A DNA stretch of 64,000 bases from Hyalangium versicolor (lineage in GTDB: Bacteria; Myxococcota; Myxococcia; Myxococcales; Myxococcaceae), in the NCBI RefSeq assembly GCF_020103695.1, contig NZ_JAHXBF010000002.1, forward strand, positions 496,001-560,000, given 5' to 3'. The position numbers and the translations under genes were made by a program. The notes beneath the pieces are model-generated. The model searched no databases. It worked only from the letters and a program-made list of their open reading frames with translations, and was not told where the DNA came from. How positions within the stretch are numbered: the first letter of the stretch is position 1; every line of letters starts with the position of its first letter. Of this stretch, positions 20,346 to 28,545 are shown in pieces.

Positions 20346-22664
20346 TCAATCGTGGATATTCTCGCGGCGCGAGTCCCAGAGCTGGAGCTCGCCATCACCG
20401 CTGAGGACGTACTGGAGGGCCGTGGGCGCCGACGGGAAGGCCTTGCGGACCTCCTGCCGCGCGCGGAGGACGGCGTCGGCCACGGGCAGTCCTGTGGCGA
20501 GATCGTGATGGAGGGCGGCCATGAAGGCCGTGCCGGCTTCGGCGTTCGGCCCGTCGAAGGCTCCGATGAACGCGCCCACGCCCAGGTCGGTGGCCAGGTC
20601 CATGAAGCCCTCGCGCCCTTCGAAGACGGAGGCGTCGGAAGCAGGCGCCGGCATCCGCAGGGCACGCGCCTCGGTGGCGTACCAACCGAAGACGGGAGGG
20701 GCGAACGCCGAGGAGGGCGCATTCAGCACCAGGAAGGGCAACCGCCCCCGGCTGAGAATGGAGCGCAAGGTGCCTTCCGAGAGGTCCACATCACCCGAGA
20801 GCTTCAGGAAGAGTTCTCCGTCCACCCGGCCCACCTGTCCCGAGTAGTGGAGAAGATCGGGGAGCCCTGCATCCAACTCCGCCATGACACGGGCGAAGGT
20901 GGCGTCGGCTCCATGAAGGACCGTGCAGGAGAAACCCCGCGCGAGCGGGTACTGGCGCGTGATGCGCTCGAGTTCCCGCTCCGTATTCCCCCCGCCTCGA
21001 CCTCCGATGAGCAGGACTCGCGGCGTGGGACGAACTCGCGGAGCCCCTCGGGCCTTCTCGGGGACGCCGACGGGTACACGGACCAGCTTGCGCTGGAGGC
21101 ACATCGGCTGGCCCTGGACCGGAAGGAGCTCCCAGGGGAACCACGACAGGCGGGGGGGAACTCGCAACACGAGCGGCGCTTGCGACGTACCCGCCCCTGT
21201 GCCCAGCACGTCGAGGACCTTCCAGACTCCATGCTTCTCGAAGATCCGCGTGAGTTCCTCGTAGCGCGAGGCGGGCAGCTCGCCACCCATCCCCTCGCCG
21301 GCCGCCTTTTGTAGGAACAGCCCTATCTCCCGGTTCAACGCGGCCTGGGCAATCCCGTCCGCCACCTCCTGGCCCTGGCGGGTGAGCCGGAACTTCACCT
21401 GCCCACGCACGAACCTTTCGAGGGCGAGCACATCCGGCCCGATAGGAGCGGGCTGCAGCAAGGCTTCCTCATCCGAGGCCTCCCCGCTGTAGCTCTCCAG
21501 CCCGAAGGACAACAGCGGAGATCCCAGGCTCTCCGGCGCTAGGCCAAGCGGAAACGTTTTGGGAGGCTCAGGGGGATCCACCACAAGAATGTTGGGCAGA
21601 ACGCCTCCTGCAGCAGCCGTCGCTCCCCTGGCCGGGCCCGCAGCGGGAGCCGGAGCCGATGCTGGCGGCGACGGCGAGCCAGGCCACACGTTGGCCATCA
21701 GCCGTGAGAGCCCGGACTGCTGCGGGGGCGCCTGGTTGTGCGAAACCACCTGAGGGGGCGCCACGACCTGAGCCGCTTCGCGCCCCTCGGGCGACCTCCC
21801 GCCGACCGCTTGCGCCACGGGCTGCGGCAACACCGCCGCCTTCAAGTCCTCGAGGAACTGCAGCACCTGCCCGTGCTTTCCCTTCTCATAGGAGATGACG
21901 CGGATGCGCGCCGTGCGCCAGAGCACGTCCCGCTCCACCCGCCCCACATCCATCATCAAGGCGAAGCGCTCGGGGACGAAGCCCTTGAAGTGAGTGAGCT
22001 GCCGGTCCATCAGCAGCCGGAAGTCCGGGTCCGACAGCGAGTAGCCCACGAAGAACAGCGCCTTGGAGAGCAGCAGTCCGCTGAAGGCCTCGTTGAAGGC
22101 GGGGTTGGCGTGGATGATCTCGCTGTAGTCGTGCGAGGTGAGCACCACCGTGTCGGGCCGGTCGATGTCTCCGTGCGCCTTGAGGATGAACCTTCCTCCC
22201 TCGAAGAGCAGCCGGCCCAGAGGCTCCGTGTCCTTGTGCGTCAACGTCCTCGGGTAGCCGCCCAGCACCTTCGAGTAGGCCCGCTCCAGCAGCTTGTCGT
22301 AGTTCGTCGTCACCCACGCACTGAAGGGCAATTGCATCAGCACGTCGTGCGTCGCGGGGAGCGTGGCCTGATCGCCGCGAACCTTCTCCGTGAGGAACTG
22401 GTGGTAGGCCGGGCCCAGCTTGTCCCGGCAGAACTCCGCCACCTCCAGCAACTTGCCCCGCTTCACCAGCTCGCGAAGCTCGTCCTGGTGCTCCTCCCCC
22501 TCCGGCAGCGAACGGACCACCTCGTCGATGCCCATCTCCAACAGCGCACCCCATGTGGGCAACCCTGCTCCCGCCGACAGGCCCGCGCCGACGAACACCA
22601 CGCACCGCTTCTCCTGGATGTAGCGGACGAGCAACCCGGGCAGCTTCGGAGTCATGGGGGACAA
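20346..22664 (-). CDS. SIR2-domain protein with a C-terminal degenerate CHAT domain
   Basis: Protein of 772 residues. The N-terminal SIR2-like domain (about 1-275) keeps the NAD-binding and catalytic signatures: FVGAGLS (24-30) then GLPTW, TTNYD with Asn121, KAHGD with His164, and FVGYSLSDPDF. A Pro/Ala-rich linker spans about 285-400. The C-terminal region resembles a CHAT (caspase/separase-like) domain: WFPWELLP, LLHYSGQ at 604-610 and PFLVLNAPSS near 650. The usual catalytic His is Gln610 and the usual Cys is Pro650, so protease activity is unlikely. SIR2 domains of this kind often act as NADases in phage defence, and CHAT partners as proteases or sensors. The role here is inferred only from domain content. 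Confidence 0.85.
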   Translation of the reverse strand: MSPMTPKLPGLLVRYIQEKRCVVFVGAGLSAGAGLPTWGALLEMGIDEVVRSLPEGEEHQDELRELVKRGKLLEVAEFCRDKLGPAYHQFLTEKVRGDQATLPATHDVLMQLPFSAWVTTNYDKLLERAYSKVLGGYPRTLTHKDTEPLGRLLFEGGRFILKAHGDIDRPDTVVLTSHDYSEIIHANPAFNEAFSGLLLSKALFFVGYSLSDPDFRLLMDRQLTHFKGFVPERFALMMDVGRVERDVLWRTARIRVISYEKGKHGQVLQFLEDLKAAVLPQPVAQAVGGRSPEGREAAQVVAPPQVVSHNQAPPQQSGLSRLMANVWPGSPSPPASAPAPAAGPARGATAAAGGVLPNILVVDPPEPPKTFPLGLAPESLGSPLLSFGLESYSGEASDEEALLQPAPIGPDVLALERFVRGQVKFRLTRQGQEVADGIAQAALNREIGLFLQKAAGEGMGGELPASRYEELTRIFEKHGVWKVLDVLGTGAGTSQAPLVLRVPPRLSWFPWELLPVQGQPMCLQRKLVRVPVGVPEKARGAPRVRPTPRVLLIGGRGGGNTERELERITRQYPLARGFSCTVLHGADATFARVMAELDAGLPDLLHYSGQVGRVDGELFLKLSGDVDLSEGTLRSILSRGRLPFLVLNAPSSAFAPPVFGWYATEARALRMPAPASDASVFEGREGFMDLATDLGVGAFIGAFDGPNAEAGTAFMAALHHDLATGLPVADAVLRARQEVRKAFPSAPTALQYVLSGDGELQLWDSRRENIHD

Positions 22665-23884: not shown

Positions 23885-25495
23885 CTACGGGATGGCGACG
23901 ACATCCCCCACGAGGGAGAAGCCCGACGAGTTCTGGCAGGCGGGGATGGGCGGCTGCGCGGACGCGCCGAGGCCACGGACCTCGGTGATGCCGGAGCTGG
24001 TGACGTCGTAGACGAAGATGCGACCCGCATTGTTGTCCCCCACGTAGGCCAGGCTGCCCACCACGGCAAAGCGGCCGGCGGACGGCAGGGCGCAGGAGCT
24101 ATTGGCTGCCGGGCACTCGAGGACCTGGGTGGCGGCCACGGCGTCCTGCGCGTCGAGCAGTACGACGGCGGTCTTCTTCACTGCCACGAGGTTGTAGTTC
24201 GCATCATAGGTAGCGTCGCCCCCGCAGCTCACCAACAGCTTGTCGCCCACGGGCGCCAACCAACCCGGGTTGAGGCAGTTGTCGCCGAGCGACAGGTACG
24301 TCACCTCGAGGGACTGCGGATCGATCCGGGCCACCAGTCCGGGGCCGCCAGCACCGAAGGTGTTCGGATCCAGGTTGTTGAGGGTCACGTAGAGGCGGCC
24401 GTGGTGGGCAACGATGCCCGCGGGCGAGGGGACGGGGTTGCTGTCTTCGAACGGCTGGAGCGCGCCACCGGTGGGGAGCTGGATGTACGGCGTGCTCAGC
24501 TGGGGCTGGAGCGGGTTCTTCACATCGACGCGCGCCACCTTGCCTCCGGCGGACACATCACCCCCGAGGTTGCCGTAGAGCGTGACCCAGAGGTCCGTGC
24601 CGAGCTTCGCCATGGCGAACGGGTTGGTGTTGGCGCCGAAGTCCACGCTGGCCACGGGCTCGAGCCCCAGGCCCTGCGGGAAGCGGGTACCGTCGGTGAG
24701 CGGGCCCGGCTGCGTCTTGCGCTGGAGCACCAGGAGCGTATTGCTGGTGGAGTTGATGACATAGACGTAGGGGTCCTCCACGAGCACCTGGTTGGGAGCA
24801 TTACCGGTATCGGGGGCTCCAGGCAGGACGGAGTAGTCCGTCAACCGGGCCTGGCGCAGCTTCTTCGCGGCATCGAGCACCAGCAACACGTCCTGCATGC
24901 CCGCCACAGTCTGCGGACGCTCGCCGAGCTGCCGGTTGGGGCCCTTGATGCTCGTGCCGGCCTGGATGCCCACCACCTGGCCGGTGTTGAAGCAGGCGGC
25001 GACGACGTCATAGGTGCACAGTCCCGCGTGGCAGCTCTTGGCATCGGTGCACGCGGTATCGCAGGAGCCGCAGTGTCCCGAGTCCTTCGCCAGGTCCACG
25101 CACGAGTTCCCGCAGACCGTGAGGCCCTGAGAGCAGGTCAGCTTGCACTGGCCGCTCTCGCAGACCTGGCCCGAACCGCAGACGATGCCGCAGCCACCGC
25201 AGTTGCGCGGATCGGACGCGGTGGCGACGCACGCCCCGGCGCACGCCTGGGTCCCTGCCTGGCACTGACAGGCACTCTCGACACAGACCTGTCCTTGTCC
25301 GCAGGCGACATTGCACGCGCCACAGGCCGTGGCCGTGCTGCTCAGGTCCACACAGCTCCCGTTGCAGTCCGTGAGGCCCTCGCCACACTCCACACCCTCA
25401 TCCGGGCAACCTGTGAGCAGCAGCCCGAAGGCCGCCACCATCAGCGTCAACCACTTGGGAGCCGTCTGCGCCCACCTCATCTGTCTGCTGCTCAT
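23885..25495 (-). CDS. Cys-rich beta-propeller lipoprotein, second gene of a cobalamin-riboswitch operon
   Basis: Secreted lipoprotein of 536 residues. The signal peptide ends in a lipobox LLTGC with Cys30 as the lipidation site (an alternative ATG at 25480 gives the same mature protein). Residues about 38-170 form a Cys-rich stalk of four similar segments (for example CNGSCVDLSSTATACGACN, GQVCESGQCKLTC). The remainder has repeated beta strands typical of a beta-propeller (YVINSTSNTLLVLQR, LWVTLYGNLGG, RLYVTLNN, AYVGDNNAGRIFVYDV). The start overlaps the btuB-like stop by 4 bases (ATGA), so the two are translationally coupled and under the same cobalamin riboswitch. That context suggests surface capture of a corrinoid, comparable to BtuG of Bacteroides. 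This is inference from context and fold, not from sequence identity. Confidence 0.8.
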   Translation of the reverse strand: MSSRQMRWAQTAPKWLTLMVAAFGLLLTGCPDEGVECGEGLTDCNGSCVDLSSTATACGACNVACGQGQVCVESACQCQAGTQACAGACVATASDPRNCGGCGIVCGSGQVCESGQCKLTCSQGLTVCGNSCVDLAKDSGHCGSCDTACTDAKSCHAGLCTYDVVAACFNTGQVVGIQAGTSIKGPNRQLGERPQTVAGMQDVLLVLDAAKKLRQARLTDYSVLPGAPDTGNAPNQVLVEDPYVYVINSTSNTLLVLQRKTQPGPLTDGTRFPQGLGLEPVASVDFGANTNPFAMAKLGTDLWVTLYGNLGGDVSAGGKVARVDVKNPLQPQLSTPYIQLPTGGALQPFEDSNPVPSPAGIVAHHGRLYVTLNNLDPNTFGAGGPGLVARIDPQSLEVTYLSLGDNCLNPGWLAPVGDKLLVSCGGDATYDANYNLVAVKKTAVVLLDAQDAVAATQVLECPAANSSCALPSAGRFAVVGSLAYVGDNNAGRIFVYDVTSSGITEVRGLGASAQPPIPACQNSSGFSLVGDVVAIP

Positions 25496-27495
25496 CGAGA
25501 GTCCATCCTCTGTTGGGGGTTCGAGGGGGAAGGACCGCCGAACGCCACCGCCAGCGTCAGGTAGGCGGAGCGGCCCGGAAGTGGGTAGCCGTCGAGATCC
25601 TCGGCGTGCACATCGAAGACGTTCTTCAGCTCCAGGGAGAGGGTCAGCTCGGGGGAGTGGCCCCAAGCGCTGGAGAGCCCGGCGTGGACGAGCGTGCGTC
25701 CCGGCAGCACGGCCTCCTCGGTGCGGTTGGTGAACTGGGCGGACTGGGCCGCCACCTCCACCCGGCCCGTGAGCCAGCGGGGGCCACCGGACACGCGCGC
25801 GCTCAGCTTGTGCCGAGGCCGGTACGGCAGCTCCTTGCCGTAGTAGCGCGGGTCATCGCGACGATTGCGAGAGACGAGCAGTGTGTAACCCAGCGTGCCC
25901 GCCACCCACGGGTACGGGCGCCACTCGCCCTCGGCCTCGAGCCCGGCCACGCTCGCGGCGGCGAAGTTGTAGGGCTTCGCGGCGAAGGGCGGGTACAGCT
26001 CATAGAGGATGAGGTCCTCATAGAGGCTGTAGAAGCCTCCGAGCGAGGCCAGCGAGTGCTCGGTGCGGTGCACCAGCGCCAGGTCCGCGAACAGCGCGCG
26101 CTCCGGACGCAGCGTGGGGTTGGGCAGCAGCACGCCCTGGCGCACGTACAGCTCCAGGAAGGAGGGAGCGCGGTGGGCCTGGCCGGCGTTGGCTCGCACT
26201 TCGAGGTTCGCAGGCAGCTTCAGCGTGGCGCCCAGCTTCGGAGAGAAGAGCGTGTACGGCCCCGCGCGCTCCACCCGAAGCGATGGCGCGATAACCAGTC
26301 GGCCTTCGGCCAGCCACAGCTCGTCCATCACCATGGCGCTGGAGTGCAACCAGTTCGGCCGGGAGTCCTCCTGGGTGGTTGCCTCCACGCCAGTGACATC
26401 CTCGGCGGACAGGGTCAGCGTCGCGGACACGATGTGCCAGCCGCCCAACGGCTTGCGCGCCTCCAGCTCCACTCCACCCACCCGCTGCACCTGGCTGCCT
26501 TGATTCGAAGCAGGCCCGCCGGACAAGCTGATGCGATCGCCTCGAAACCAGGCCCTCGCGGAGCCCCGAGCGCCACCGAGCTTGCCCGAGAGCCGCAGGC
26601 TCGTCGCCAGGCGCCCCGTGCTCTGCCGCGCATCTGGAATCGGATTTGTCGCGGTGCCCGCCAGCCCTCGGTCCTCGGCGGACAACTCGCCAAGCAGGTC
26701 CAGCGCGAAGCCGTTGCCCCACGCATGCCTCAACCGCAACAGCCCGCCTGCCTCGCGCGCGTCGTTGTTCGTCCGTCGGCGTTCGACGAGATCATCTCCT
26801 GGGAACGCGGGGCTCGGGTCGAAGAGGAAGGGGAAATCTCCCTCGGACTCACCGCCATGGAGGACGAGCAGCGCATCCACTCCCGGCAGCGGCCCCGTCG
26901 CGGACAGCCATCCCCGCTTCGTGTCCCAACTGCCGTAGGTGGCCTCTGCCGCCACACGGGGCTGCTCGCCGGGGCGATGGGTGATGACGTTCACCACGCC
27001 GCCCAGCCCTCCCGAGCCGTAGCGCGCACCGGCCCCACCGCGCAGCACCTCGAAGCGCTCCACGAGGGGCAGCGGCACGCGAGAGACATCGGCAATACCT
27101 CCCGCGCCGTTGAGCGGGATGCCATCCAGCAGCAGGAGCACGCCCGTGGGAGACGCTCCGCGAATCACCAGGCTCTTGCTCTGCCCGAAGCCTCCCGAGT
27201 CCTGCACCTGCACGCCTGGCGCGGTGGAGAGCACCTCGGCGGCATCCTTCGCCGCACCGCCAAAGTCAGCGGTCTCGATGACGGTGAGCGCGCCGGAGGG
27301 ATCCCTCTGGCGGGCCGAGTCCAGGGTCTCGACCACGCGAGGCGCATGAACTTCCACCGTGGGGATGGGGCTCGCCTGGGGCTTGGGCTCGGAAGGAGCG
27401 GGGGCGTCCGCCGCGGGCGCGCTCTGGGCCCGTGCGATTGAACTCGCGATGACCGCCAGGCACACAAAGGCCCTGACGAGAAGAGACGGCCCCAT
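25492..27495 (-). CDS. btuB: BtuB-like TonB-dependent cobalamin receptor
   Basis: Outer membrane receptor of 667 residues. The signal peptide (FVCLAVIASSIARAQS) is followed by a plug domain (about 55-165; VIRGASPTGVLLLLDGIPLN, VERFEVLRGGAGARYGSGGLGG). A 22-strand-type barrel ends near residue 650 (SAYLTLAVAFGG), in keeping with the size of BtuB (about 600-700). A cobalamin riboswitch lies immediately upstream (27556-27780), which is the main evidence for the substrate: vitamin B12 or another corrinoid. The open frame extends to 27606, but that would run into the riboswitch; the ATG at 27495 is preceded by GGAAGGCGGAGC and starts the signal peptide. No btuCDF genes are in the window. Confidence 0.9.
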   Translation of the reverse strand: MGPSLLVRAFVCLAVIASSIARAQSAPAADAPAPSEPKPQASPIPTVEVHAPRVVETLDSARQRDPSGALTVIETADFGGAAKDAAEVLSTAPGVQVQDSGGFGQSKSLVIRGASPTGVLLLLDGIPLNGAGGIADVSRVPLPLVERFEVLRGGAGARYGSGGLGGVVNVITHRPGEQPRVAAEATYGSWDTKRGWLSATGPLPGVDALLVLHGGESEGDFPFLFDPSPAFPGDDLVERRRTNNDAREAGGLLRLRHAWGNGFALDLLGELSAEDRGLAGTATNPIPDARQSTGRLATSLRLSGKLGGARGSARAWFRGDRISLSGGPASNQGSQVQRVGGVELEARKPLGGWHIVSATLTLSAEDVTGVEATTQEDSRPNWLHSSAMVMDELWLAEGRLVIAPSLRVERAGPYTLFSPKLGATLKLPANLEVRANAGQAHRAPSFLELYVRQGVLLPNPTLRPERALFADLALVHRTEHSLASLGGFYSLYEDLILYELYPPFAAKPYNFAAASVAGLEAEGEWRPYPWVAGTLGYTLLVSRNRRDDPRYYGKELPYRPRHKLSARVSGGPRWLTGRVEVAAQSAQFTNRTEEAVLPGRTLVHAGLSSAWGHSPELTLSLELKNVFDVHAEDLDGYPLPGRSAYLTLAVAFGGPSPSNPQQRMDSR

Positions 27496-27555
27496 GCTCC
27501 GCCTTCCGCTCTCTCCATCGAAGAGAGAAGGCCACCGATGCGTCACGAGGACGCC

Positions 27556-27780
27556 CGGACCTCTGGGCAGGTCTCCTGGCTCATGGGCTCCGGCGCGAGG
27601 GCGCACACTGCGCCTCTCCGGAAGGAGCCCTCTCCCTTCCCCGGGATGCTGCTCCCAAGTGGGAACTGCGGAGGACTCCGGCCCCGACTTTCAGGGCTGC
27701 CCACATACAGTGGCGGGACCGCGCCGGATTTCCACCGGCTTCCCTCTTGCGTGCCCGAAGTGGGCACCCAAAGGCGCGCC
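27556..27780 (-). ncRNA. Cobalamin riboswitch
   Basis: Reading the minus strand, the 5' part has the conserved core GGGAAGCCGGTGGAAATCCG then CGGTCCCGCCACTGTA (about 27744 down to 27706). Further 3' lies AAGTCGGGG, and the B12 box GCCAGGAGACCTGCC is at 27580-27566. These match the class-I cobalamin riboswitch consensus. It lies in the 5' leader of the btuB-like gene, ending about 60 bases before the ATG. Binding of adenosylcobalamin would be expected to repress expression of the receptor and the coupled lipoprotein. Exact end positions are approximate. Confidence 0.96.
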
Positions 27781-27784
27781 CCTT

Positions 27785-28318
27785 CTAGGGGTTCAGGCCC
27801 GCGCTCGTCAAGCGCACGGGCGCCAGGGCGCGAGCGTGCACGTACTGCTCGAAAGCAGAAGCCTGGAGAAACGCCATCTCCACGTCACCGAAGCGCAGTG
27901 AGGCGCGATCGAACAGCGGCGCGGGCCGGCCGGGGACGATGAGCACGCCGGCCTGATACGTGCCGTTGTGGCTCTCGGAGTCCACCACCTGCCACATGCC
28001 CGTGTGGGGCTCCTGGCGGAAGCAGGCGTGGAGCCGCGAGACGGTCGGGTCCTCGACGACGAGATCACAGTCCGGCGCGCGCCCCAGTGAGACCTCCACC
28101 TTGCCCGGTGTCCGCGAACGCAGCTCGAGCACGAGTGGATCCACGGAGGTAGGCCGGCGGGCCCAGGTGTTGGACAGGGTGGAGTCGATGAAGCCCAGGC
28201 GGGATGCGGGTCGCGGCGGCGGGGTCTCCCAGATGAGCACCGGCCAGGAAACGGCCTTGAGCACTGCCTCACGGTCATAGACGAGCTGCGAAGCCAGAAC
28301 CGAGAACCTGAGCGCCAC
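27785..28318 (-). CDS. FHA-domain protein
   Basis: Protein of 177 residues with a GTG start at 28318 preceded by GGAGGGG at good spacing; a longer frame runs to 28543 but lacks coding character. The FHA domain is at about residues 75-155: VEVSLGRAPDCDLVV, SRLHACF, SESHNGTYQAG. It is expected to bind phosphothreonine proteins, but it has no fused output domain, so it may be an adaptor of a Ser/Thr kinase. It ends just before the cobalamin riboswitch, which lies on the same strand. No function beyond phosphopeptide binding can be named. Confidence 0.85.
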   Translation of the reverse strand: MALRFSVLASQLVYDREAVLKAVSWPVLIWETPPPRPASRLGFIDSTLSNTWARRPTSVDPLVLELRSRTPGKVEVSLGRAPDCDLVVEDPTVSRLHACFRQEPHTGMWQVVDSESHNGTYQAGVLIVPGRPAPLFDRASLRFGDVEMAFLQASAFEQYVHARALAPVRLTSAGLNP

Positions 28319-28545
28319 GACGCCACCCCTCCGGCCTGAGTCGAGGCCCGAAGCTGTACATGGCCTCCAGTGGCGACCAGCCCCCCTGGACTCGGGGGGG
28401 CTTGCACTGATCCCAACCTTCCACTCGGGGCGTGATTTTGCCGGAGGAGGCTTGCCTCCCGCGCCCGCGCTGTCTCGCCTCCGACAGAAGGCTCTTGGGG
28501 CGGGCTCCGGGTATGCTCGGTGCACCTGAGCAAGAGAGGACACTC

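Follow-up and report, generated by a model that had tools for sequence, protein, structure and literature searches.

A candidate corrinoid-capturing, BtuG-like lipoprotein encoded with a BtuB-like receptor behind a cobalamin riboswitch in Myxococcota

A lipoprotein that probably acts as a BtuG-like, corrinoid-capturing lid for a BtuB-like receptor is encoded in a 64,000-nucleotide stretch of the genome of the myxobacterium Hyalangium versicolor (contig NZ_JAHXBF010000002.1; this whole stretch is termed the window, and its internal numbering is used below). The lipoprotein, P0001, and the receptor, P0002, are encoded together behind a cobalamin riboswitch and, by analogy with BtuG, would form a cobalamin-responsive outer membrane uptake unit outside the Bacteroidota, a reading to which we assign a probability of roughly 0.7. 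The known counterparts are BtuG1, BtuG2 and BtuG3, which work with BtuB in Bacteroides (PMC6143338, PMC10404256) and share with P0001 the seven-bladed propeller on a lipoprotein, a gene beside that of a BtuB-type receptor, and a cobalamin riboswitch. BtuG has been described from Bacteroidetes, as exclusive to them (PMC6143338) and as not having been found in other BtuB-using organisms (PMC12751083), whereas P0001 belongs to the Myxococcota; the link between BtuG and Myxococcota that was found in the literature concerns DUF4465 (BtuJ) proteins.

In the proposed mechanism, low cellular cobalamin would allow the two-gene operon to be expressed through the riboswitch, and the BtuB-like receptor would import corrinoids with energy supplied by TonB. 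P0001 would be held in the outer membrane by its lipid anchor, with a disulfide-rich stalk as spacer and the propeller at the far end, where it would capture extracellular corrinoid and deliver it to the receptor, in the way that BtuG serves BtuB in Bacteroides. The surface exposure, the corrinoid binding and the lid-like complex with the receptor are what we infer for P0001 from BtuG, as we do the spacer role for the stalk.

The operon and its riboswitch

The order on the minus strand is riboswitch, receptor gene and lipoprotein gene, with the following features:

27787-27548, minus strand: cobalamin riboswitch aptamer (RF00174; cmscan 67.7 bits, E 1.4e-14)
27580-27569, minus strand: B12 box GCCAGGAGACCT (from the sequence, aligned to the RF00174 consensus)
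27495-25492, minus strand: BtuB-like TonB-dependent receptor P0002, 667 residues (Pfam Plug E 1.5e-21, barrel E 1.1e-28)
25495-25492, minus strand: ATGA overlap of the receptor stop (TGA) and the lipoprotein start (ATG), suggesting translational coupling (from the sequence)
25495-23885, minus strand: BtuG-like propeller lipoprotein P0001, 536 residues
25495-25406, minus strand: signal peptide, lipobox LTGC and lipidated Cys30, followed by PDEG (from the sequence)
25387-25016, minus strand: Cys-rich stalk of three eight-Cys repeats, Stig1-like and resembling NF041328 (MXAN_6577-like) (Pfam, NCBIfam, Cys spacing)
25009-23888, minus strand: predicted seven-bladed, YVTN-type beta-propeller body, residues 163-536 (374 residues) (AlphaFold, Foldseek, VIA-align, conservation)

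The riboswitch was the sole match in an Rfam scan of the window; it exceeded the gathering score of RF00174 (31.5 bits) and covered the full length of the model (1-189), with the conserved core and the B12 box. A first-pass annotation of this DNA had claimed such a riboswitch before a TonB-dependent receptor gene, a four-base overlap between the receptor and lipoprotein genes, and a lipobox at Cys30, all of which the sequence and the profile matches listed above bear out. At its 5' end the riboswitch touches the stop codon of an FHA-domain gene (27785-28375, minus strand), which makes it possible that transcription of that gene reads through into the operon. A consensus scan for promoters and terminators found none, which carries little weight in a GC (guanine plus cytosine)-rich myxobacterium; if there is no terminator after the aptamer, control might, as a guess, be translational.

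The top PDB matches of P0002 were structures of Escherichia coli BtuB (E 5e-23, across the plug region), with which it shares the plug, the barrel and an upstream riboswitch, but E. coli btuB is without the lipoprotein partner gene that is present here. The top NCBIfam model of P0002 was TIGR01779 (TonB-B12), with a score of 139.3 bits against a cut-off of 599.7, and because this is far below the cut-off P0002 is classed from its sequence as BtuB-like and not as a strict equivalog. The assignment of cobalamin as its ligand comes chiefly from the riboswitch.

Conservation of the receptor and propeller pair

The propeller body was searched for in 195 Myxococcota genomes and relatives were found in 125 of them, among these nearly every member of the window's own family. 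For at least 125 of the 139 propeller matches, the gene immediately upstream on the same strand encodes a BtuB-like receptor, and because of this the linkage of receptor and propeller is far beyond chance; most of the matches outside the 125 are at contig ends or proved to have a receptor once the locus was read. The -4 gap between the two genes recurs in the majority of relatives whose start is confident. A cobalamin riboswitch precedes 48 of the 61 pairs that have enough upstream sequence, the window included, which answers the first-pass question whether the pair is kept under riboswitches across myxobacteria. Side observations at single loci include an additional propeller copy in one genome with no receptor on its contig (G102, L106 / L060, G102:C79), a single receptor gene between two propeller lipoprotein genes (L067, G145:C176), and two loci with a riboswitch and a BtuB-like receptor where no propeller partner was detected (L089, L093).

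The 13 pairs without a riboswitch comprise nine extra copies in one genus (Myxococcus, judging from the named loci), two second copies (G031, G032), a pair in G091 and another that lies close to the start of its contig. Neither cmscan nor B12-box matching found a riboswitch at the extra Myxococcus pairs (L007, L008, L099-L105), and the other Myxococcus pair, where read (L047), has one. These extra pairs possibly have a changed substrate or changed regulation. Several genomes carry two pairs in which each type of receptor goes with its own type of propeller, the pairs in one genus having been duplicated together with their partners kept, and this is what would be expected if the two proteins work together.

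The extra copies also bear on what is imported. The unit might serve another ligand of the cobalamin regulon, such as cobinamide, other corrinoids, corrinoid-protein complexes from prey or cobalt chelates, and the propeller would then bind that ligand. Cobalt uptake is also under cobalamin riboswitches in other bacteria, and the extra copies in one genus that lack a riboswitch suggest other substrates. Moreover, cobinamide is bound by BtuG2 itself (PMC10404256). The best-scoring known receptors are nevertheless BtuB and the TonB-B12 model, and the genome is without CobS and CbiC, so that a complete cobamide would be needed; we consider another ligand unlikely.

The pairing also bears on the Cys-rich stalk. 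Its repeats span residues 37-76, 78-117 and 121-160 and contain 24 Cys, with a spacing of 7-4-10-3-4-6-5 that is identical in all three; the first-pass annotation had counted four repeats. The stalk is matched by Pfam Stig1 and by NF041328 (146.5 bits against a cut-off of 100), the latter over residues 18-161 only, so that the stalk is common to P0001 and the MXAN_6577-like family and the propeller body lies outside that model. No mention of MXAN_6577 was found in the literature searched, and the body of P0001 matched no named family in Pfam or NCBIfam. P0001 could alternatively serve a structural role at the cell surface on its Cys-rich stalk, co-transcribed with the receptor but with no part in B12 uptake, its N-terminal module belonging to a separate family named for a Myxococcus xanthus protein and its body to none. 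This appears very unlikely, as the pairing is kept over much of the phylum, stalk-less relatives included, the pairs duplicate together, and the conserved part is the propeller and not the stalk. Because the stalk is missing from several distant relatives (L071, L072, L074), the propeller is the core of the system and the stalk a dispensable, lineage-specific addition; a disulfide-rich stalk had been put forward as part of the solution, and while it is present it is not the essence of the system. The lipobox was found again in relatives of P0001; the export signal rule for lipoproteins of Bacteroides is specific to that phylum. Four Cys residues of the propeller (Cys168, Cys407, Cys424 and Cys520) are near-invariant across the family. 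Cys168 and Cys520 are near opposite ends of the body, where a disulfide could lock the closure of the ring.

Predicted fold and kinship with BtuG

AlphaFold predicted a propeller for mature P0001, with a mean predicted local distance difference test score (pLDDT) of 73 and a predicted template modelling score (pTM) of 0.66. As this model had a poor first blade, the body was then modelled alone, and a propeller was again predicted (mean pLDDT 76, pTM 0.83). When the body model was compared with the whole PDB by Foldseek, the top three matches were BtuG chains and BtuG made up 11 of the top 20, and with the mature-protein model BtuG took ranks 1 and 2, which answers the first-pass proposal of a structure search against BtuG. 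VIA-align placed the P0001 models on seven-bladed propellers with Z 22-26 over about 250-310 residues, and the body on BtuG with Z about 23 over 275-283 residues at a root mean square deviation of 3.0-3.4 Å; the structure alignment took in six sequences. The two models and the structure comparison agree with the earlier claim of a propeller-like body, and predict that it has seven blades.

Kinship with BtuG was assessed by profile-profile comparison. The 38-sequence profile of the P0001 family aligned by hhalign with three BtuG sequences in register over 204 columns (E 2.7e-7), and with a single BtuG at E 1.8e-5, while other proteins of this fold, taken as controls, did not match (YncE E 0.033, 6-phosphogluconolactonase (Pgl) 0.022, and a DUF5074 protein other than BtuG 0.043). 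A search of PDB sequences with the single P0001 sequence retrieved nothing; it took the family profile to reach BtuG and S-layer propellers, with the archaeal S-layer propeller (1l0q) first and BtuG second. These comparisons suggest that distant common ancestry with BtuG is more likely than convergence. The first-pass annotation had seen a possible BtuG analogue of convergent origin, with no obvious sequence kinship to BtuG. The analogue, paired with a BtuB-like receptor, is supported, but convergence and a lack of kinship are not, as both Foldseek and the profile-profile comparison single out BtuG among propellers, even though neither PF16819 nor the reciprocal search does so.

Several results weigh against a BtuG-like lid. 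Besides the 13 of 61 evaluable pairs without a riboswitch, the first blade is of low confidence in both AlphaFold models, and VIA-align gave Z 25-26 for lactonases and the S-layer YVTN propeller, slightly above the Z 23 of BtuG, so that geometry alone does not pick out BtuG. PF16819 matched neither P0001 (E<=1) nor any of 38 relatives (E<=0.01), and a BtuG profile run against the host genome puts P0001 in ninth place (E 3). Since there is no PF16819 match and the reciprocal rank is ninth, P0001 is not filed as BtuG and is not a full member of that family. It also differs from BtuG in that P0001 alone has the three-repeat, eight-Cys stalk and the conserved Cys of the propeller. Orthology was considered and rejected as unproven, since the reciprocal BtuG profile search ranks other proteins higher both in the host genome and in the phylum, where P0001 was not ranked first. 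PF16819 does match other open reading frames of the host genome.

Other propellers were compared as well. The fold is common to 6-phosphogluconolactonase, carboxymuconate lactonizing enzyme and virginiamycin B lyase (Z 22-26), and P0001 might accordingly be an enzyme (a lactonase, a lyase or a corrinoid-modifying enzyme) that acts on a ligand either outside the cell, at its surface, or within the periplasm, be it ahead of uptake or following it, and not a capture lid. This seems quite unlikely, as both Foldseek and the profile comparison prefer BtuG over Pgl, and Pfam scans over the 38 relatives gave only weak, scattered matches to propeller repeats. The archaeal S-layer propeller (1l0q) and E. 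coli YncE share the seven-bladed YVTN fold, but YncE has no profile match to the family, and to our knowledge neither is associated with a cobalamin riboswitch. In E. coli K-12, yncE adjoins the gene of a TonB-dependent receptor, pqqU (L097 4964-8369). XusB, the propeller lipoprotein of xenosiderophore uptake in Bacteroides fragilis, was also among the Foldseek matches, but at a lower structural rank, and its ligand is an iron chelate; we know of no link between XusB and a cobalamin riboswitch.

B12 in the host genome and in the phylum

The host is a predatory soil bacterium. Its genome (13.6 Mb, estimated to be 100% complete) gave no match to CbiC or CobS, for which control genomes expected to carry them do score, and because both are absent the host probably cannot make cobalamin and is a B12 scavenger. 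Myxobacteria also need B12 for the photoreceptor CarH.

The genome contains three cobalamin riboswitches. The second lies ahead of two lipoprotein genes coupled by ATGA, whose products have 500 and 248 residues (L080 6076-8470; G000:C21:12075-14469), and in other genera relatives of this lipoprotein pair follow immediately after the receptor-propeller operon; in G108 (L039) a single riboswitch is followed by all four genes in one operon. The 248-residue lipoprotein aligned by hhalign with the BtuH domain that is fused to BtuG1, weakly but in register (E 4e-4). BLASTP and PDB searches gave no link between it and BtuH, and searches with the 500-residue lipoprotein gave no family. The third riboswitch (L079 4381-12086; G000:C3:242380 onward) has genes for class III aminotransferases, an aldehyde dehydrogenase, a coenzyme A-transferase and a thiolase-like protein downstream, and may belong to a cluster for B12-dependent degradation of amino acids. 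Elsewhere in the window (20346-22664, minus strand) is a gene whose product has a SIR2-like domain and, at its C-terminus, a weak CHAT-like match, and is possibly a defence or cell-death protein.

Taken further, the Myxococcota might have a phylum-wide corrinoid capture system of their own, in which a stalked BtuG-like propeller, BtuB and a riboswitch-controlled pair of lipoproteins, one of them BtuH-like, serve B12-auxotrophic predators, and the BtuG principle would then predate the gut Bacteroidota or have arisen independently of them; we put the odds of this broader proposal at even. BtuG has so far been discussed as a matter of competition in the gut. If P0001 is indeed a BtuG-like lid, an equivalent conserved among soil predators would make lid-assisted capture of B12 broader than gut ecology, and would account for the B12 supply of a myxobacterium whose own pathway is incomplete. 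The family that NCBI names solely by its Cys-rich N-terminus would gain a likely function, and the relatives of P0001 in M. xanthus and its kin would offer a genetically tractable system for the study of lids formed by lipoproteins on TonB-dependent receptors outside the Bacteroidota.

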